This document shows, piece after piece, positions 18,563 through 34,495 of a stretch of DNA of 47,927 bases; the stretch's first letter is position 1, and the number at the start of each line of letters is the position of its first letter. The notes beneath the pieces are model-generated. The model made no database searches, had not been told where the DNA came from, and saw only the letters and a list, made by a program, of their open reading frames with translations. Source of the DNA: a virus; the IMG/VR virus record IMGVR_UViG_3300030389_000544, positions 1-47,927 of that record. One strand, given 5' to 3'. Both the position numbers and the translations under genes were made by a program.

Positions 18563-18970
18563 CTAAGTGGCTTTTTGCAATAACATTGTCATCTCTCTAT
18601 TGCTCTGATCTAACAATCTCGTTACCCAAACCTCGTCTTGACGCTTTTCAGCTTCGCTTATCGTGTGCTCTATAGCGTTGCAAAGCTTCCAAATACGTTG
18701 CTCTTCATGTTTTGTGAGTGGATTTTTGTCATTGTCAAAAGATTTTATCTCTTTTGTCGCTTTTTCAGACTTTTTTGTGTCAGTGTGATACAAAACTGCA
18801 AATTTTACCGCCTTTGGTATGCGATTTTGACCAGATTCATAACATCTATAGCCCCTTTCGCTCAATCCTAACGTCTTTGCAAAGTCTATTTGGCTTAATC
18901 TTAGCTCATTTCGGTGTTTTTTTAATATTTCACCATTCCAATCGCTATAACTCGTATCGCTTTTCTTCAT
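18563..18970 (-). CDS. XRE-family (Cro/CI-like) transcription regulator
   Basis: 135 residues. The helix-turn-helix is clear at about 15-55: ILKKHRNELRLSQIDFAKTL, then GLSERGYRCYESGQNRIPKA. The C-terminal half (NPLTKHEEQRIWKLCNAIEH onward) is helical and probably used for dimerisation; there is no LexA-type peptidase domain. It is the last gene of the early operon before the late genes and overlaps the upstream gene as ATGA. The operon promoter at 19207-19235 carries the shared dyad operator, so this protein is the best candidate for binding it and controlling its own synthesis (inference). Confidence 0.85.
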   Translation of the reverse strand: MKKSDTSYSDWNGEILKKHRNELRLSQIDFAKTLGLSERGYRCYESGQNRIPKAVKFAVLYHTDTKKSEKATKEIKSFDNDKNPLTKHEEQRIWKLCNAIEHTISEAEKRQDEVWVTRLLDQSNREMTMLLQKAT

Positions 18971-19176
18971 TCTACCCTCTTTAGTAGTTTGTTTTGAATT
19001 AAATCCTCAACCAACTCCTCATCAGTACCATATCTCATGTATTTGCCACTCCAATCACACGCTATTTCAGCAAAACCTTTGCGAAAATCATCGTGAGTTT
19101 TGTAATAAGCCTCTGAATCTGCATACAATTGCTGCACAATCTCTTTTGGAGTGCCCTGGTATACATTATCGGACAT
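18967..19176 (-). CDS. Small conserved phage protein upstream of XRE regulator
   Basis: 69 residues from the ATG at 19176 (MSDNVYQGTPKEIVQQLYAD). A longer frame exists, but the promoter at 19207-19235 would start RNA near 19200, so the upstream in-frame starts are untranscribed or leaderless. The protein has a helical region around DFRKGFAEIACDWSGKYMRY and ends with ELVEDLIQNKLLKRVE. Similar small proteins occur near phage regulators; no function assigned. Confidence 0.6.
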   Translation of the reverse strand: MSDNVYQGTPKEIVQQLYADSEAYYKTHDDFRKGFAEIACDWSGKYMRYGTDEELVEDLIQNKLLKRVE

Positions 19177-19206
19177 TGGTTCTAAAATATATTTAATCAT
19201 ATTAAG

Positions 19207-19235
19207 TTTATAGGCTTTGATTGCCGAAAGGTCAA
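19207..19235 (-). promoter_or_regulatory. Sigma70-type promoter with internal dyad operator (XRE operon)
   Basis: Minus strand: TTGACC, 17-base spacer, TATAAA. The spacer holds GGCTTTGATTGCC (plus-strand 19213-19225) in the same position as the dyad in seven other promoters. It would drive 18967-19176 and the XRE gene. Confidence 0.7.
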
Positions 19236-19330
19236 GAAATTTTTTTATAAAATTTTTTTGCCCAGCGTATTTCAAAAACCTGGGGGCCGTTTGAGGGAAA
19301 CTCGGCAAAAAGGTATTACCGCCGACAATA

Positions 19331-19407: not shown

Positions 19408-20616
19408 TTATGATAATGCTACAATTCTTTGATCAAAATAGTTAGCTAGATCTTGACTAATATTTTCATAAACAAAATCAGCTACGTTATAATCAGTAGT
19501 AATGGAACCTAAAGACATTCTTGTTAAAGTTTCTCCATCGTTAATTTTATATCCGCATAAATCATGCTGACCTTGGCTCGATCCATTTTCATAACCATAT
19601 GAATGTTGGGTTAAACACGTAACCGCTTTTTGTGTTCTGTATTTTCTTTTAATGGTATTAACTGTACGAGCTACTGAACCTCTACAATTAATATCACATT
19701 CTAGCATAATCTCTTGAACCGTTGCTCCTTGCGGTCTTGATGCTATTTCATAAAACTTAAATAACTTTGTACGAGGTCTAAAGATATTTGACATTGTAAA
19801 CTCTTCAACATCACCGCTATTAGTTAGCTTAACTCTATTTTGATAGCTATGATTAAACATACCTAACATTAAATGAGCAAAGTTATTTATCTTATTAAAG
19901 TTTAATGTTCCGCTATGTTGCCTAACCTCAATAGTATTTTTTGAGATATAAGTTTTATTAAGATTAACAGAATAAAATTTTGTCAGGTAATTATTCATTC
20001 GTCTATCATTAACCGATTCATCACAATATATAGCTTTTTGTAATTGCTCAACATTAGTGCTATTTTTAATAGGATCTAGATAAGCATAACTTATTGGCAT
20101 ACACATTCTATTCATACGTCTAGACTTAGGTAACATAGAAGATATTTTATTTTGATGTTTACAATATCTATAAACAAAATCTTTAATAACCTCAAAGTTA
20201 ACCATTTCCATATTTTCACATTGAAAGTAAAAATTTCTATGTTGTTTAAATCTCTCAATTGATTGTTCAAAAAAATCTTTTTGAGAAATATTAATAGGTC
20301 TTAAACCTATATGAATATGATGTCCGCATGATTGTTTAACTTTACAACCTAAAGTTTCATCTAAATAATTATAAAATTCTTTTAGAAATTTTTCCGTATA
20401 TGGCGAACCTATTTCTAAAGGTGGGAGTTTAATTTCACAGCCAGTTTCTCCTAAATATTCTCGATCTACTTTAGGAGCTAAGAAACTATATTTTTCATGA
20501 TTAGATAAAATATCGGCCATTTGATGTTCATTATATTTTAAACATTCTATTTCTAGACCCATAGCTAAACGTATACTGTTAACGTCTAATATTTTGTTAT
20601 GTGTTATTATATCCAT
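19408..20616 (-). CDS. Amidoligase (COOH-NH2 ligase family) with C-terminal helical domain
   Basis: 402 residues. Family motifs of the Amidoligase_2 group are present in order: GLEIEC at 20-25, GCEIKLPP at 59-66, CGHHIHIGL at 97-105, and NTIEVRQHSGTLNFNKI at 227-243. Glu22/24, Glu61, His99/100/102 and Glu230/Arg232/His234 are the expected metal, nucleotide and substrate ligands. Such enzymes use ATP to join a carboxylate to an amine, forming isopeptide or peptide-like bonds. Residues about 285-340 (GATVQEIMLECDINCRGSVA) look like a winged-helix segment, which is unusual. Own operator-bearing promoter upstream, terminator downstream. The in vivo substrate is unknown. Confidence 0.85.
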   Translation of the reverse strand: MDIITHNKILDVNSIRLAMGLEIECLKYNEHQMADILSNHEKYSFLAPKVDREYLGETGCEIKLPPLEIGSPYTEKFLKEFYNYLDETLGCKVKQSCGHHIHIGLRPINISQKDFFEQSIERFKQHRNFYFQCENMEMVNFEVIKDFVYRYCKHQNKISSMLPKSRRMNRMCMPISYAYLDPIKNSTNVEQLQKAIYCDESVNDRRMNNYLTKFYSVNLNKTYISKNTIEVRQHSGTLNFNKINNFAHLMLGMFNHSYQNRVKLTNSGDVEEFTMSNIFRPRTKLFKFYEIASRPQGATVQEIMLECDINCRGSVARTVNTIKRKYRTQKAVTCLTQHSYGYENGSSQGQHDLCGYKINDGETLTRMSLGSITTDYNVADFVYENISQDLANYFDQRIVALS

Positions 20617-20662: not shown

Positions 20663-20691
20663 TATATAGGTAATGAATGCAAGTTATAATT
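20663..20691 (-). promoter_or_regulatory. Promoter with dyad operator for amidoligase gene
   Basis: A -10 box TATATA (plus 20663-20668) abuts the dyad GGTAATGAATGCA at 20669-20681, the same geometry as in the other promoters. The -35 position is poor (AATTAT) and lies inside GAACAATTATAAC, a near-copy of the GAACAATTATTC element found in the arrays. An activator at that site would compensate for the weak -35. Confidence 0.5.
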
Positions 20692-20837
20692 GTTCGTTTT
20701 TGTTGATTTTTAGCGTTTTTTTTACCTATTATGTAAACGATTGAGCTATATAAATTATTCAAAAAATATTAATTTTTTTTAAATTTTCGGCCATTTTGCT
20801 GGGTTGTTCGCTTTTTGGATACTGGGCTTCAAGCTGG

Positions 20838-20957
20838 ACTGGATTCCGACCCGAACCCGACTCGAACATTAGCCCCGACAGGCCCGAGCCCGACCCGAAC
20901 ACCGAACAATTGTTCGGTTTTTTTGTGTCCCGCTCAACCTGCCTCCCCGAATTGCGA
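20838..20957. repeat. GC-rich island 1 with single GAACAATTGTTC palindrome
   Basis: The 397-base gap 20617-21013 holds the amidoligase promoter, an AT-rich stretch, this island and a terminator; no credible gene. The island repeats CCCGAAC/CCCGAC words (about eight between 20848 and 20907) and ends in an 18-bp perfect palindrome, ACCGAACAATTGTTCGGT at 20901-20918, followed by seven T on the plus strand, a terminator-like form. The same words and palindrome recur in islands 2 and 3. Confidence 0.8.
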
Positions 20958-20959
20958 AC

Positions 20960-20986
20960 AAAAAAAAACTCCAGCAGGTGCTGGAG
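20960..20986 (-). terminator. Intrinsic terminator after small genes 21014-21380
   Basis: Minus strand: CTCCAGC / GCTGGAG (7 bp, tetraloop) followed by nine T. It lies 27 bases after the stop at 21014. Confidence 0.87.
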
Positions 20987-21013
20987 CCTTTGTAAGTTGT
21001 TGGTGAGTTTGTG

Positions 21014-21214
21014 TTATTCTTTCTCCCACTTGTTAATCTGCTCTAGTAAACCACTCGCACACTCGGAACGACCACGAAACAGATAAACATCTAAATCATC
21101 AAAGTCGTTGTAATCATCATAGGTGTACTTGTTGTTTCCTTTGACTTCGCTTCGTAACCACTTTTTAATTTTAGCGATTACTTGATTGGATAGATCATCA
21201 GGATTATTTCTCAT
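21014..21214 (-). CDS. Small unknown early protein
   Basis: 66 residues from the ATG at 21214, preceded by a GGAG ribosome site (the longer frame from 21238 lies inside the upstream gene). Sequence: MRNNPDDLSNQVIAKIKKWL, then an acidic Tyr/Asp-rich middle (YTYDDYNDFDDLDVYLF) and a helical end LLEQINKWEKE. Overlaps the upstream 58-residue gene by 11 bases. A small acidic early protein; could be a host-takeover factor, but nothing specific is recognised. Confidence 0.6.
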   Translation of the reverse strand: MRNNPDDLSNQVIAKIKKWLRSEVKGNNKYTYDDYNDFDDLDVYLFRGRSECASGLLEQINKWEKE

Positions 21215-21380
21215 CTTCTGGCTCCTTCCAAAACACAACGATATCAGCGATATTATCTTTTACTTTATCATAATGCTCAAATTGTTTTTTCAAATTACTT
21301 TTATCTACATAGCCCCAATTATCATGGCCAAGCATTTCTTGACACGCTTCATCAAGGGCGTCTGAACAATATCTACTCAT
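21204..21380 (-). CDS. Small unknown early protein
   Basis: 58 residues: MSRYCSDALDEACQEMLGHD, then NWGYVDKSNLKKQFEHYDKV and an acidic end. A strong AAGGAG Shine-Dalgarno lies ten bases before the ATG and an operator-bearing promoter lies just upstream (21413-21441). It forms a two-gene cassette with 21014-21214. Function unknown. Confidence 0.65.
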   Translation of the reverse strand: MSRYCSDALDEACQEMLGHDNWGYVDKSNLKKQFEHYDKVKDNIADIVVFWKEPEDEK

Positions 21381-21412
21381 TTACTTTCTCCTTTTGTTAA
21401 GTTTGTGTATAT

Positions 21413-21441
21413 ACAATAGTCAATCATTGCCTGTATGTCAA
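21413..21441 (-). promoter_or_regulatory. Promoter with dyad operator
   Basis: Minus strand TTGACA, 17-base spacer, TATTGT. The spacer contains GTCAATCATTGCC (plus 21419-21431). Drives 21204-21380 and 21014-21214. Confidence 0.8.
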
Positions 21442-21494
21442 ATAAATAATAATATTTTTTTACGGCCTGTTTGCTGTTTCCTGTTGCTGTTAAT

Positions 21495-21790
21495 GCGAAC
21501 AATTGTTCGCTTTTACAGATGCAGCAGGTCTGGCCTCCACGCCAGGTACTACAGATGATATTGGCTGCGGGGATGATGGCAGAACATACCGAACAATTGT
21601 TCAGAACAGCCCGACCTGAAAGCCCGAAACAGCCTGGTTACATTTGCTGCGTGGGCGTAAAGCGAACAATTGATCGGTTACAGCTTCGCTGCAGGTCTGA
21701 GCACTGGGCCAAGCTCAATATAAAGCGAACAATTATTCGTTTTTGTGGAGCAGGATTGGGCACGGGTCAAGTTATAGCGAACAATTATTC
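21495..21790. repeat. Palindrome array 2 (five GAACAATTGTTC-type copies)
   Basis: Gene-free gap 21381-21899. Copies start at 21497, 21591 (both perfect), 21664 (GAACAATTGATC), 21727 and 21779 (both GAACAATTATTC); intervals 94, 73, 63, 52. GCAGCAGG follows the first copy after 12 bases (21521-21528); near-matches follow the third, fourth and fifth. Intervening DNA is GC-rich, unlike the AT-rich promoter beside it. Lies between a terminator (21824) and a promoter (21441), so probably untranscribed. Confidence 0.9.
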
Positions 21791-21823
21791 GGTTTATTAA
21801 CCCAGGCAGGTCTGGACCCGAAC

Positions 21824-21853
21824 AAAAAAAAACCCCGAGCCAGTAGCTCGGGG
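21824..21853 (-). terminator. Intrinsic terminator after 21900-22350 cassette
   Basis: Minus strand: CCCCGAGC / GCTCGGGG (8 bp, loop 5) then nine T. A second nested hairpin precedes it at 21860-21897. Confidence 0.88.
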
Positions 21854-21859
21854 CCTATA

Positions 21860-21897
21860 TTTTGCACGCAAGCCCGAACAATTCGGGGGGTGCAAAA
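21860..21897 (-). repeat. Two-tier hairpin TTTTGCAC...CCCGAA-CAA-TTCGGG...GTGCAAAA
   Basis: Outer arms 21860-21867 / 21890-21897 (8 bp) enclose inner arms CCCGAA 21873-21878 / TTCGGG 21882-21887 with loop CAA. It is a relative of the island palindrome (CCCGAACAATTCGGG) and stands between the stop of the 41-residue gene and the terminator. Confidence 0.7.
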
Positions 21898-21899
21898 CT

Positions 21900-22025
21900 T
21901 TATTTGTTTTCTAACTCATGGATTTTCTTCCTGAGTAGAATTTTAAACCAGCCATCGCCTGGCGTTTTTTTCTTTTTACGTTCCAAGCGTTTAAGCGTTT
22001 TCTTTAATTCCTCTAGTTCAGACAT
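21900..22025 (-). CDS. 41-residue basic coiled-coil protein
   Basis: MSELEELKKTLKRLERKKKK followed by TPGDGWFKILLRKKIHELEN. The first part is a clear heptad-type helix; the second a short amphipathic helix after a Gly turn. It follows the 107-residue gene by one base and is preceded by a purine-rich ribosome site. Unknown function; the leucine-zipper-like helix suggests self-association or partner binding. Confidence 0.6.
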   Translation of the reverse strand: MSELEELKKTLKRLERKKKKTPGDGWFKILLRKKIHELENK

Positions 22026-22026
22026 T

Positions 22027-22350
22027 TTAAATATATCTTTCTTTAAGAGCGTATCCGTCACCATAAAGAACGCTAGCTAATGTATAGACCATATGAAAGC
22101 CCATATCCATTCCACAACCCCCAACGCCAACGGCGTTGGTTTTGTCTTTATATGCCCACTTAAGGACTTTGGCAACATGATAAGAATAATGATAAATATT
22201 ATTATCCTTAATAGAATGGCAGCTAATATGCCTATACATACCACTTCTTGAAACTTGCCTAATTACTAAGTAAACAGTTGATCCCTTCGGGAAGTTGTCT
22301 TTTAGTAGCTGCGTTGAATACTCAACAGTATTAAATTTTAAATCATCCAT
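22027..22350 (-). CDS. Conserved phage protein with VSRSGMxRxI and GGCGMDMGFHxVY motifs
   Basis: 107 residues. The motifs VYLVIRQVSRSGMYRHISCH near 26-45 and VGVGGCGMDMGFHMVYTLAS near 73-92 define a conserved family found in many phages and prophages of Gram-negative bacteria; no biochemical role is known to me. A strong AAGGAG site precedes the ATG and an operator-bearing promoter is just upstream (22386-22414). Confidence 0.8.
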   Translation of the reverse strand: MDDLKFNTVEYSTQLLKDNFPKGSTVYLVIRQVSRSGMYRHISCHSIKDNNIYHYSYHVAKVLKWAYKDKTNAVGVGGCGMDMGFHMVYTLASVLYGDGYALKERYI

Positions 22351-22385
22351 AATTAAGACTCCTTTTGTTTTTGTTTGTCCTTATA

Positions 22386-22414
22386 TATATAAGTAATGAT
22401 TGCCGATAAGTCAA
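22386..22414 (-). promoter_or_regulatory. Promoter with dyad operator
   Basis: Minus strand TTGACT, 17-base spacer, TATATA. Spacer dyad AGTAATGATTGCC (plus 22392-22404). Drives 22027-22350 and 21900-22025. Confidence 0.8.
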
Positions 22415-22479
22415 CAGCTAATTTCTATTTTTTTTATTTTTTTCAGAACTGGTGAAGCTGGGGCCTCGCTGCCAGAAGC

Positions 22480-22868
22480 GAACAATTGTTCACGCTGTCT
22501 TCAGGCAGCAGGAACAAGTTGAGCAACTGGGTCATCGGCTGCGTGAGCGAACAATTGTTCAAAATGCTCCCAGGCAGCAGGGCCGTGTCTGGTTGGAACT
22601 GGTCATTAGCTGCGTAAATGAACAATTGTTCGTAATCCCGAACAACAGCAGGCCCGACACGGCTGATGCAGCGGGGATGACCAGGGCGCAGGGCGAACAA
22701 TTGTTCAGAACCCGACAGGCTGCGTGACCTGCTGGACCCCGAATCCCGAACAATTATTCACTTTAGGCAGCAGGTGAAGGCCAGGGTATCCCGAAATCGA
22801 ACAATTATTCGGTCTGGGCAGCAGGTTGAACCAGGCTGGGCAGGAACCCGAAAAGCGAACAATGGCGG
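22480..22868. repeat. Palindrome array 3 (six copies plus a half-site) next to terS
   Basis: Gene-free gap 22351-22983. Perfect GAACAATTGTTC starts at 22480, 22549, 22620, 22695; GAACAATTATTC at 22748 and 22799; a half-site GAACAATGG at 22857. Intervals 69, 71, 75, 53, 51, 58. GCAGCAGG (or one mismatch) begins 13 bases after the copies at 22480, 22549 and 22620, and 7 bases after 22748 and 22799. CTGG-GTCAT-NN-GCTGCGT-like words recur before copies two and three. The line 22681-22740 is 39/60 G+C, against 12/60 at 22381-22440. Confidence 0.92.
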
Positions 22869-22887: not shown

Positions 22888-22970
22888 TAGCCCGAAGCCC
22901 GAAGGAACCAGGCATCAGCCCGAACCCGAAGTCTGGGAAACCCCGAGCCCGACTGCCCGAGGCACCCCCG
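22888..22970. repeat. CCCGA-word cluster between terS and array 3
   Basis: About seven CCCGA words (CCCGAAG, CCCGAAC, CCCGAGC, CCCGACT, CCCGAGG) within 80 bases, the same vocabulary as island 1. A direct repeat GTTTTCTGC at 22868-22876 and 22976-22984 brackets the cluster; the second copy touches the terS stop codon. No gene seen. Confidence 0.65.
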
Positions 22971-22983
22971 CAAGTGTTTTCTG

Positions 22984-23511
22984 CTAATTTGTGGGTTTTA
23001 CGCTACTATGTTCTATCGTATTTGGGTCGTTATGGGGTTTGTTCGCTATTTTCATGCGTTTATGGGCAAGTTCCTGAAATTCCTGTAGTTTTGTCAGTAT
23101 TTGTTCTCTTGTCATAGTGTCTGCCTGTTCATGTAGCACATGGGCCTTATTTACAAGCAATCCTGTAGCCTTTAAGCGTAGTTCTTCAGCCCGAATAGCC
23201 TCACCAAACTTCCCGCTCTCCCAAGCCTCGTTACGGATCTTCAGCAGATCCCGCACCGACTTCTCAATCGTTACCCCGAATCGACTCCGAGCTTCTTCCC
23301 GCATCTCTTGATAACGCTCTTGGACAACTGGGTTCCGAAGCAGCCTAACTGCATCTACTCCAGGGTTAGCATATCCCGCTGCTCTAGCAGCAGAAGTCTG
23401 CGTCATATCTTTATGCATAAAGTTATCAAGAAAAGCTTGTTGTTTATCAGTCAGTCTTTTTTGACCCGCTAATCGTTGTTCTCGTGTTAGATCTTGTCCG
23501 ACTTTCGGCAT
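22984..23511 (-). CDS. terS: Terminase small subunit
   Basis: 175 residues. The N-terminal DNA-binding domain is recognisable: LTDKQQAFLDNFMHKDMTQT, SAARAAGYANPGVDAVRLLR, NPVVQERYQEMREEARS (Terminase_2 family pattern). A helical oligomerisation region follows (EEARSRFGVTIEKSVRDLLK) and a variable C-terminus. It recognises the packaging start on viral DNA and activates the large subunit. It lies 6 kb from terL, between two repeat arrays, and its DNA is GC-richer than its neighbours (33/60 in 23221-23280). AGGAG ribosome site before the ATG. Confidence 0.88.
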   Translation of the reverse strand: MPKVGQDLTREQRLAGQKRLTDKQQAFLDNFMHKDMTQTSAARAAGYANPGVDAVRLLRNPVVQERYQEMREEARSRFGVTIEKSVRDLLKIRNEAWESGKFGEAIRAEELRLKATGLLVNKAHVLHEQADTMTREQILTKLQEFQELAHKRMKIANKPHNDPNTIEHSSVKPTN

Positions 23512-31030: not shown

Positions 31031-31633
31031 TTAGTTGTTTTGAGCCCAGGGTGCAGGCTTAAAACCACCCCCTTGAGGTGGTGTGCCACCCCCTTGCGGA
31101 GTTGTTGGTGGTGTATTACTTCCGCCGTTACCAATATAACCATTTTCGCCAACACATAATGTGCCAACTAATTTATTCTTATCTTGATAACCATTGGTGC
31201 CTTTTTCAATACCAATCTTAGCACAAAACTCCATGCCATCCATGACCTCAAGACCGCTGATATTTCTAATCTTCATGGCCTCTGGCGAGATGTCGGACTT
31301 TGATAAACCCTTGGCACTATCAACAATATCCTTAATAGTTTGCAAGCCAATCTCTTTGGTATAAAAAACTCCAGTATCTGGATTTACTTTACCACCATCA
31401 AGCATAATATTTTGCCAAAACTTACGTCTTTCAAATTGACCAGCACAAACTGTAAATTCGCACTCGATCCATTTAGTTCTGCCATTAGTTTTAAACATTG
31501 GCTCTTGCGAGTATTCAGTTAGAACCTCACCACCTCTTTTAAGATTTACAATAACACGAGCTACTGTTCCTGCTGGAATAAGCTCAAAATCACCCCCACC
31601 GCCACTTGACGATACATTACTAAAATCAATCAT
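31031..31633 (-). CDS. Single-stranded-DNA-binding-like protein
   Basis: 200 residues. An OB-like beta region spans about 15-160 (FELIPAGTVARVIVNLKRGG, TKWIECEFTVCAGQFERRKF, GMEFCAKIGIEKGTNGYQDK) and a disordered Gly/Pro-rich tail (TPPTTPQGGGTPPQGGGFKP) follows, ending APWAQNN. Layout and neighbourhood with the Sak4-like ATPase match phage SSB genes. It should protect ssDNA during replication and annealing. Confidence 0.78.
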   Translation of the reverse strand: MIDFSNVSSSGGGGDFELIPAGTVARVIVNLKRGGEVLTEYSQEPMFKTNGRTKWIECEFTVCAGQFERRKFWQNIMLDGGKVNPDTGVFYTKEIGLQTIKDIVDSAKGLSKSDISPEAMKIRNISGLEVMDGMEFCAKIGIEKGTNGYQDKNKLVGTLCVGENGYIGNGGSNTPPTTPQGGGTPPQGGGFKPAPWAQNN

Positions 31634-32488
31634 TTATTTACTCCCTTCGCTAGAATTAGGTGATGCAAACTCTAATTTTTTAGATACATCACGACCACTG
31701 ATTTTTGTTAATAATTTGCCTAAATGAGGTTCTTCAAGAATCTCAAGTTGACCTGACCTATCCTTTGCAGGATAACCCCACTGATTTAGTGTTTGACAAA
31801 CAAATGCCCTATATGGCGGATGCTCGTCACCACCTGGCATGACTGCCATAGTAATAACTTCGTCAACAATGCCAGGTAGTTCACGGCCAGTCTTTGAACC
31901 CTCAATCTGAAGTTCATAATTGACCCTACCATACTCGTCTACTTTCTCATCGAGAATGCCAACAAAGATTACATTCTTAGATCTGATATGCTGAAGTTGC
32001 GTTAACCAACCCATCATCTCACGACCTTGCATACCATAGACCGCTCTTGTGTCTACTTTACCAGTTCTATCCGATTTATTATCTGGATGACCATAGCAAT
32101 GCTGAAAACAAAGTCTGCCTGCAACTGTAATACTATCAACAAAAATAGAATCATATTTCTTCATGATTTCCATTTGATCTCCATACATTTGTGACACTCT
32201 TTGAAACTCAATATTACTATAAGGTTGATCTGGTGTTAATGCTGGATTAGGACCGCCAAGAAAACAAGCAAAATCTCTGCACTCTTCCCAAGTTTTAGGT
32301 CTGATTACATCAATAGGCCAGTTTTCAATGGCAGCATCTCCTGCCTCTAAGTCCATAAATAATGTTGTATCTGGATCAAGAGTGCGAGCAAGAGTTGTCT
32401 TACCCACACCACTTGAACCACAAATAACAATTTTATGACCACGTTTTTCTTTTAATCGCTCTTCGGCTGAAATAATTTTTAAAGCCAT
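31634..32488 (-). CDS. RecA-fold ATPase, Sak4-like
   Basis: 284 residues. Walker A GSSGVGKT at 24-31, TLFMDLEAGDAAIENWPIDV near 42-61, Walker B-like YDSIFVDSITVAGRL near 113-127, then VIFVGILDEKVDEYGRVNYE near 185-205 and ELPGIVDEVITMAVMPGG. This is the RecA-core single-domain pattern of Sak4/AAA_24 phage annealing ATPases, which act with SSB in homologous recombination. One base from the SSB gene. Confidence 0.85.
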   Translation of the reverse strand: MALKIISAEERLKEKRGHKIVICGSSGVGKTTLARTLDPDTTLFMDLEAGDAAIENWPIDVIRPKTWEECRDFACFLGGPNPALTPDQPYSNIEFQRVSQMYGDQMEIMKKYDSIFVDSITVAGRLCFQHCYGHPDNKSDRTGKVDTRAVYGMQGREMMGWLTQLQHIRSKNVIFVGILDEKVDEYGRVNYELQIEGSKTGRELPGIVDEVITMAVMPGGDEHPPYRAFVCQTLNQWGYPAKDRSGQLEILEEPHLGKLLTKISGRDVSKKLEFASPNSSEGSK

Positions 32489-33907: not shown

Positions 33908-34288
33908 TTAACTTTTGTTTTTATAGGAGAGATGAATGTCTATACCATGTATAGCTTTCATCATCTTCTTTTTTAATTTAAATTCTGGTGTAAGTATGCC
34001 TTTTGCATCTTCAACAACCAGTTTTGAAAGTCCATCTTCTTCTTCAAGTAAATATCTAAAATCTGCTATATAATCACAAATTTTAACATCATTAATACTT
34101 AGTTCATATTTAATTTGTCGCTCTAATTGCGTAACAATACCAGCTCTTTCCATAGCTTTGAGTTGACCCCAACGCTCTGCTTCCCATCTACTATCAAACT
34201 TTAGCCCCATAGCTATAGTTTTTTTTGCAAAATACTTATTGTTGCTTGTTCTGTTTTTTTTGGGTATAAATGGGTATTTATGAGTCAT
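33908..34288 (-). CDS. DUF1064-type PD-(D/E)XK nuclease
   Basis: 126 residues. KYFAKKTIAMGLKFDSRWEA near 18-37 and ERQIKYELSINDVKICDYIA with DFRY near 76-79, VEDAKG near 92-97 and FKLKKKMMKAI. The Glu36, Asp76, Glu93/Asp94-x-Lys96 pattern is that of DUF1064 (PD-(D/E)XK) phage enzymes, thought to cut branched or junction DNA. It lies at the end of the late operon direction, convergent with the plus-strand block. Confidence 0.82.
   Translation of the reverse strand: MTHKYPFIPKKNRTSNNKYFAKKTIAMGLKFDSRWEAERWGQLKAMERAGIVTQLERQIKYELSINDVKICDYIADFRYLLEEEDGLSKLVVEDAKGILTPEFKLKKKMMKAIHGIDIHLSYKNKS
34242..34270 (+). promoter_or_regulatory. Plus-strand promoter for 34301-34495
   Basis: TTGCTT (34242-34247), 17-base spacer, TATAAA (34265-34270). 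It is located within the 5' end of the opposite-strand nuclease gene. Confidence 0.6.
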
Positions 34289-34300
34289 GGAGGTAGTATA

Positions 34301-34495
34301 ATGACAGATACATCAAAATTCAAGTCAATAGGTGTTGATATAGAAACTTACAACAAACTAAAAATAATTTGTGATCAAGAAAGAAGAAACATACGCTTGC
34401 AGGTAGGTTTGTTAGTAGACAAAGAATGTGAAAGACTTGGTATTAATAATAATAAAGTATTAGGTTTAGGTGGACTCAATCGCTCTCATTCTTGA
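34301..34495 (+). CDS. Ribbon-helix-helix-like small regulator
   Basis: 64 residues from the ATG at 34301 with GGAGG nine bases before it. FKSIGVDIETYNKLKIICDQ, ERRNIRLQVGLLVDKECERL is a strand plus two helices of RHH type (compare CopG). Its 3' end overlaps the lysozyme gene by 30 bases on the other strand. Candidate DNA-binding protein for the island palindromes or dyads. Confidence 0.68.
   Translation: MTDTSKFKSIGVDIETYNKLKIICDQERRNIRLQVGLLVDKECERLGINNNKVLGLGGLNRSHS

Follow-up and report, generated by a model that had tools for sequence, protein, structure and literature searches.

Arrays of a graded palindrome beside terS as candidate operators of exchangeable promoter cassettes in a group of uncultured phages

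At rrn P1 promoters, several sites for one protein (Fis) are followed by an UP element and then a strong promoter. The phage protein p4 of phi29 binds upstream of RNA polymerase and stabilizes it, and is described as activating one promoter and repressing another (PMC11476376). Mycobacteriophage L5 carries numerous stoperators in its genome, most of them pointing the same way with respect to transcription (PMC6550527), while in T4-like phages the PeSL promoter–terminator cassettes mediate gene shuffling (PMC4503421). The LexA boxes of Mycobacterium tuberculosis vary in their middle four bases, which are AATT in the dnaE2 box and ACAT in that of lexA (PMC8607333). Here we compare with these systems a phage locus in which arrays of a strict palindrome usually lie upstream of promoters and, in most arrays, the sites improve towards the promoter.

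The stretch of DNA analysed (the window) comprises the 47,927 bases of a virus record in IMG/VR. Its TerL is 56–60 % identical to that of the pelagiphages HTVC027P, HTVC023P and 023Pt_psg01 and of the gammaproteobacterial phage DSL-LC04; SAR11 and a gammaproteobacterium are the hosts of the closest cultured relatives. No DNA-level match of the region was found in named phages, and its TerS had no relative among the species genomes of bacteria and archaea that were scanned (about 85,000), so no host could be assigned in this way; the phage group is uncultured and aquatic, probably mostly marine. A sequence-only reading had described twelve copies of a palindrome in three islands, and we recover exactly these, as seven exact and five one-mismatch copies of GAACAATTGTTC (Table 1). 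The polarity claimed for both arrays (perfect copies at low coordinates, variants after them) and the half-site of array 3 are present, and the spacings, recomputed as 94, 73, 63 and 52 in array 2 and as 69, 71, 75, 53 and 51 in array 3, agree. Under a second-order Markov model 0.004 exact copies would be expected in the window; with up to two mismatches there are 15 copies, compared with 4.1 ± 1.95 in shuffled sequences (shuffle maximum 10), and those beyond 20.9–22.9 kb are isolated. Since all likely genes of the array stretch are on the minus strand, the perfect sites at low coordinates are the promoter-proximal ones, and the degenerate sites are distal, beside the preceding gene. Avoidance of CCCGA in the rest of the genome was only about 2-fold relative to a Markov model and was for that reason set aside.

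Table 1. Positions of the arrays, promoters, genes and other elements of the window
Feature	Position	Strand	Remarks
Array 3	22480..22868	-	perfect sites 22480, 22549, 22620, 22695; GAACAATTATTC (ATTC variant) 22748, 22799; half-site ~22857; terS–P3 interval; kept in relatives
Array 2	21497..21790	-	perfect sites 21497, 21591; imperfect 21664 (GATC), 21727 and 21779 (both ATTC); upstream of promoter P2; kept in relatives
Island 1, single perfect palindrome	20904..20915	no strand	upstream of amidoligase gene
Half-site CGAACAATT	20688..20696	-	amidoligase promoter region
Promoter P3	22386..22414	-	TTGACT-17-TATATA; A/T-rich UP-like tract ~22415-22450; array end 64 bp upstream of -35
Promoter P2	21413..21441	-	TTGACA-17-TATTGT; A/T-rich UP-like tract; array end 54 bp upstream of -35
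G-quadruplex motif, canonical	22941..22969	- (transcript strand)	just after terS
G-quadruplex motif, canonical	20873..20896	- (transcript strand)	island 1
Intrinsic-terminator-like hairpin	21830..21856	-	after 22027-22350 gene, upstream edge of array 2
Intrinsic-terminator-like hairpin	20964..20991	-	after cassette-2 genes, upstream edge of island 1
terS	22984..23511	-	Pfam Terminase_2
Cassette gene 1	22027..22350	-	107 aa; no Pfam family; PHROG 12365 (function not assigned)
Cassette genes 2	21014..21380	-	two small overlapping ORFs, families F20 and F21
Amidoligase-like protein, C-terminal winged-helix-like domain	19408..20616	-	conserved frame gene, candidate binder
XRE-type HTH protein	18563..18970	-	frame gene, candidate binder
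Small RHH-like protein	34280..34495	+	candidate binder; also in array-less relatives

The arrays persist in relatives. A search with TerS gave 80 loci; a TerS-independent search for two palindromes with 42–72 bp between them found 75 stretches of viral contigs, almost all of which hold this TerS; and a search for three half-sites in the same direction gave 92 viral stretches, with 59 new loci, 49 of them with TerS and most of the others with the family amidoligase or TerL, or with simple tandem repeats. After removal of near-duplicates, 47 non-redundant loci remain in which arrays follow the same terS, with TerS identity as low as about 51 %; the first sites come no more than a few hundred bases after the terS stop codon, and others recur over 2–4 kb. 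The check proposed beforehand, that the arrays should be kept beside terS while the rest diverges, is borne out. The relatives are not fully independent of one another, and the statistics given below guard against kinship only partly. When the ~85,000 species genomes were scanned for array-like half-sites, none of the 40 hits had the phage genes of this family or at least two near-perfect palindromes; since comparable arrays and phage genes are absent from these hits, a phage-borne system is suggested. Palindrome pairs in three further contigs were left out as unrelated: one (G003, 74 kb) is a GCGATCGC-rich contig with a cyanobacterial-looking dispersed repeat, in which GAACAATTGTTC pairs stand exactly 47 bp apart at 2802/2849, 7912/7959, 24603/24650 and 49513/49560, and in the other two (G004 and G012) the pairs apparently belong to a repeat inside a coding gene.

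Within the 34–41 kb of each that was examined, the array motif was not found in HTVC027P, HTVC023P, 023Pt_psg01 or DSL-LC04, and the TerS of these four phages was not picked up by tblastn with the query used. At the same locus, in the terS–terL gaps, the GC-rich islands of array-less relatives are made up of different short repeats: HTVC027P (locus L152) has GCTTG, 023Pt_psg01 (L153) GCTCG/GCTTG and DSL-LC04 (L155) CCGTG. Given these islands, the code word itself may differ between lineages.

Variation within the unit CGAACAATTGTTCG is as expected for recognition of double-stranded DNA and not for RNA pairing, since changes are one-sided in 491 cases and compensatory in 2, and the central four bases vary least (AATT in 144 and TATT in 31 of 184 units). 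Weak flanks, AAA and TTT, prolong the symmetry. On the transcript strand, in arrays close to that of the window, the half ATTGTTCG is nearly invariant and the other half graded; in some lineages it is the other half that is perfect, the direction being lineage-dependent, and over all units the promoter-proximal half alone is perfect in 236 and the opposite half alone in 82. In seven loci (L009, L012, L013, L015, L016, L020 and L039) most operators have changed together to GAACTATTGTTCG, a joint change that suggests either co-evolution with a binding protein or concerted evolution.

A second element, GCAGCAGG, had been proposed as a fixed-distance partner forming a two-part unit with the palindrome. 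In the window this holds: with at most one mismatch, GCAGCAGG follows the sites at 21497, 22480, 22549 and 22620 after a gap of 12–13 bases and those at 22748 and 22799 after 7 bases, and near-copies also occur 12 bases after 21664 and 8 bases after 21727. Among the relatives, only seven partners at gaps of 7, 8, 12 or 13 were counted over about 316 sites, which is roughly background, and four of the seven are in one close relative (L041). The partner is not conserved at a fixed distance, and we reject the two-part motif as a family-wide unit.

The position of the arrays is recurrent: the previous gene is followed by the array, and this usually by a strong sigma70-like promoter with an UP element and TTGACA (promoters here are consensus matches, as ORFs are calls by simple rules). 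A promoter lies 30–90 bp downstream of 49 % of site clusters, compared with 12 % of random positions. The logo of these promoters comprises an A-tract UP element, TTGAC[AT], a spacer of mostly 17 bases and a TATATT-like -10, with GC content dropping from about 0.50 to 0.19 just before the -35. In the 82 arrays with at least three sites, the match to the operator rises towards the promoter (mean Spearman rho 0.46; 57 arrays up and 12 down; Wilcoxon 8e-9), and sites scoring at least 13/14 make up 28 % of first but 77 % of last sites. From the end of the last site to the TTGACA/TTGACT box the distance is often 44–47, 54–57, 64–67, 74–79 or 85–88 bp, that is, distances cluster at about 45, 55, 66, 76 and 86 bp with a period of 10.5–10.6 bp (R=0.48, n=75, Rayleigh ~2e-8); with one pick per cluster of spacer sequences (41 clusters) R is about 0.39–0.42 and p about 0.002–0.003. 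The second and third sites upstream showed no phasing to the promoter, and a weak period of about 11 is seen in the spacing between neighbouring sites (R 0.27). Some arrays have no TTGACA promoter nearby, mainly those before the amidoligase gene. In the clade of the window, a single operator or half-site lies near the poor -35 of the amidoligase promoter (the -35 assignment is ours), and clade relatives carry CGAACATTT or a full palindrome at the place of the window's half-site. Inside the -35/-10 spacer of array-linked promoters, in the window (22414 and 21441) and in relatives, there is often a second palindrome, TAGGCAATNATTGCCTA or TTGCAATCATTGC, which looks like an operator of another regulator and is partly common to array-less promoters, for instance at ~32982 on the minus strand.

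Most genes behind the array promoters are swapped between relatives while the arrays stay: the 151 small ORFs between arrays fall into 58 families, mainly with a single member. None of 10 representative cassette proteins matched a Pfam family above cutoff. Around them the frame recurs, with the amidoligase gene, a small protein of no assigned function and the XRE gene, the last missing in one contig (G002). In HTVC027P, gp30, gp33 and gp34 form extra temporal expression clusters with unusual timing (PMC12753301), and by gene positions these three sit in the matching locus.

Because the sites improve towards the promoter, the last site is helically phased to the -35 and the mutations are one-sided, we propose, with a probability of about 0.7, that CGAACAATTGTTCG serves as operator for a dimeric protein with sequence-specific binding to DNA, most probably encoded by the phage, and that its graded arrays are placed upstream in compound cassette promoters. 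The list of purposes first considered for the arrays (packaging, partition or replication site, or graded operator) is thereby narrowed: conservation, gradient, phasing and the link to UP-element promoters speak for the graded operator, and nothing specific to partition or replication was found. The arrays would form the upstream part of promoters that drive the hypervariable small accessory cassettes lying between the amidoligase gene and terS. In transcript order, such a cassette would typically run from a G-rich island with weak sites through better palindromes to an A/T-rich UP element, a TTGACA/TATATT promoter read by host RNA polymerase, one or two small genes and, in places, a terminator. 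The dimer on the strong proximal site would be held on a fixed helix face next to the alpha-CTD of RNA polymerase, and as protein concentration rises the weaker distal sites would be filled and the very strong early promoters tuned or turned down. A gradient would follow if the distal sites contribute cooperativity or a dose response and the proximal site is the most important one. At the amidoligase gene, the same operator near a weak -35 might give a different, possibly opposite, response. The distance of the proximal operators from the presumed start site, ~90–130 bp, is far for a simple repressor or a class I activator and counts against the operator reading.

If the arrays do regulate, shut-off or tuning has slightly better than even chances, and activation perhaps one chance in three. 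The array promoters seem strong enough to need no activator; this strength, together with the purely functional analogy to phi29 p4, mildly favours an early burst followed by tuning or shut-off. It is conceivable, if doubtful, that control is of a plug-in kind, an accessory gene between terS and the amidoligase gene bringing or acquiring a standard cassette that is read by one phage regulator, with the number and quality of sites setting the dose response. Equally tentative is the parts list of such a standard cassette, namely a G-quadruplex-forming island, a graded directional operator array, a full UP element and a consensus promoter. Canonical G-quadruplex motifs occur in the islands 43 times on the transcript strand and once on the template strand (1–3 and 0–1, respectively, in block shuffles) and are found in the downstream regions of 27 of the 47 relatives; elsewhere in the window there is none beyond the two in Table 1. 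The arrays would offer a testable DNA code for control of a hypervariable accessory locus in uncultured phages, a locus whose cassettes may hold host-takeover or counter-defence genes of no assigned function. A motif this strict and clade-specific could, in addition, mark the limits of cassettes and show which contig fragments belong to the phage group.

Among the candidates for the predicted binder (XRE protein, RHH protein, winged-helix domain of the amidoligase, TerS) none stands out. The XRE protein was rejected, as G002 lacks it and its recognition helix is variable although the operator stays the same; AlphaFold models it as an unremarkable HTH protein, for which Foldseek gave weak matches (E ~0.02 at best), Aca2 and restriction controller proteins among them. 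Occurrence in array-less relatives counts against the RHH protein, and variation of the domain against the winged-helix domain. In G002 a small protein related to the latter (31628-31867) is also encoded separately, directly before the amidoligase gene. The alignment of the frame protein at 18967-19308 is without a DNA-binding signature, and this protein too was rejected. TerS, including its HTH region, is well conserved.

This conservation, matching an unchanging site, is also part of the case for a packaging signal, in which TerS would bind the arrays as a pac or cosB-like site and start headful packaging. The arrays lie nearly always beside this TerS family and close to the stop codon, down to ~51 % identity, and the four named phages without an array in the stretches covered are also those whose TerS tblastn did not find with this query. 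The strictness of this link keeps packaging in consideration; we nevertheless hold it to be unlikely, given that the sites are found again before several distinct promoters, as far as ~4 kb off, and in helical phase with the -35, neither of which a pac site needs, and that the gradient points to the promoters and not to terS. As to pac-type compactness, there are several promoter-linked arrays over 2–4 kb, all in one region. The high turnover of genes between conserved islands would suit repeats that serve as recombination spacers, shuffling cassettes by homologous exchange in the manner of the T4 PeSLs and having little regulatory role. Such a reading leaves phasing and operator-like conservation unexplained, and homology between islands is poor because only short words are conserved while the intervening sequence diverges; we regard it as very unlikely by itself, although PeSL-like shuffling may hold alongside operator function, since the arrays accompany swapped genes.

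Control of the cassettes by host LexA, as SOS boxes responding to DNA damage, seems highly improbable even though CGAACAATTGTTCG fits the LexA/SOS pattern CGAAC-N4-GTTCG and is, as an identical 14-mer, the exact core of the M. tuberculosis dnaE2 SOS box (PMC8607333). The N4 is not freely variable here (AATT or TATT in 175 of 184), the sites do not overlap the core promoter but lie 45–90 bp upstream of the -35, the nearest cultured relatives have SAR11 and a gammaproteobacterium as hosts, and no equivalent arrays were found in the bacterial genomes scanned; the LexA-type direct repeat GTTC-N7-GTTC showed no excess at the N7 spacing. An RNA element (hairpins, terminators or another transcribed structure, including a stoperator-like roadblock to transcripts from terS) we consider barely credible. 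Signs pointing that way are the palindrome at 20904, which on the plus strand is scored as a terminator together with its T run, the G-quadruplex motifs on the transcript strand and the prevalence of one half-site orientation (236 to 82), as in stoperators (PMC6550527); set against them are the near absence of compensatory changes (2 against 491), the AATT that would form the loop and is the most conserved part, the lack of any match in an Rfam search and a phasing to promoters that an RNA would not be expected to show. Island 1 and array 2 of the window are, moreover, probably little transcribed, since terminators precede and promoters follow them.

Finally, returning to the described systems, the putative operator locus has the layout order of rrn P1, from which it differs in that its motif is a strict palindrome, compared with the loose Fis site, and in that its arrays are graded and specific to one clade. 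It resembles the p4-controlled promoters A3 and A2c of phi29 in that one operator seems to serve promoters with a strong and with a weak -35, the analogy being functional and the roles at our locus conjectural; there, four p4 sites lie between two promoters, whereas here 2–7 graded sites stand before each of several exchangeable cassettes. With the L5 stoperators it has in common many copies, mostly in one orientation relative to transcription; those are asymmetric, genome-wide and mostly not linked to promoters, whereas the sites of the window are palindromic, promoter-linked and at one locus, and we do not place them in that class. The actinobacterial LexA box shares the 14-mer (PMC8607333) and differs in that the centre here is near-invariant, in the distance to the promoter and in the array form. 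As with the T4-type PeSLs, promoter and terminator modules lie between swapped small genes (PMC4503421), but a PeSL is a stem–loop with an early promoter, while the phage locus has operator arrays and UP elements, with terminators or stem–loops only in places. Operator arrays as such are already known; the plug-in architecture is apparently unusual, and shared control of interchangeable genes in this manner apparently undescribed.
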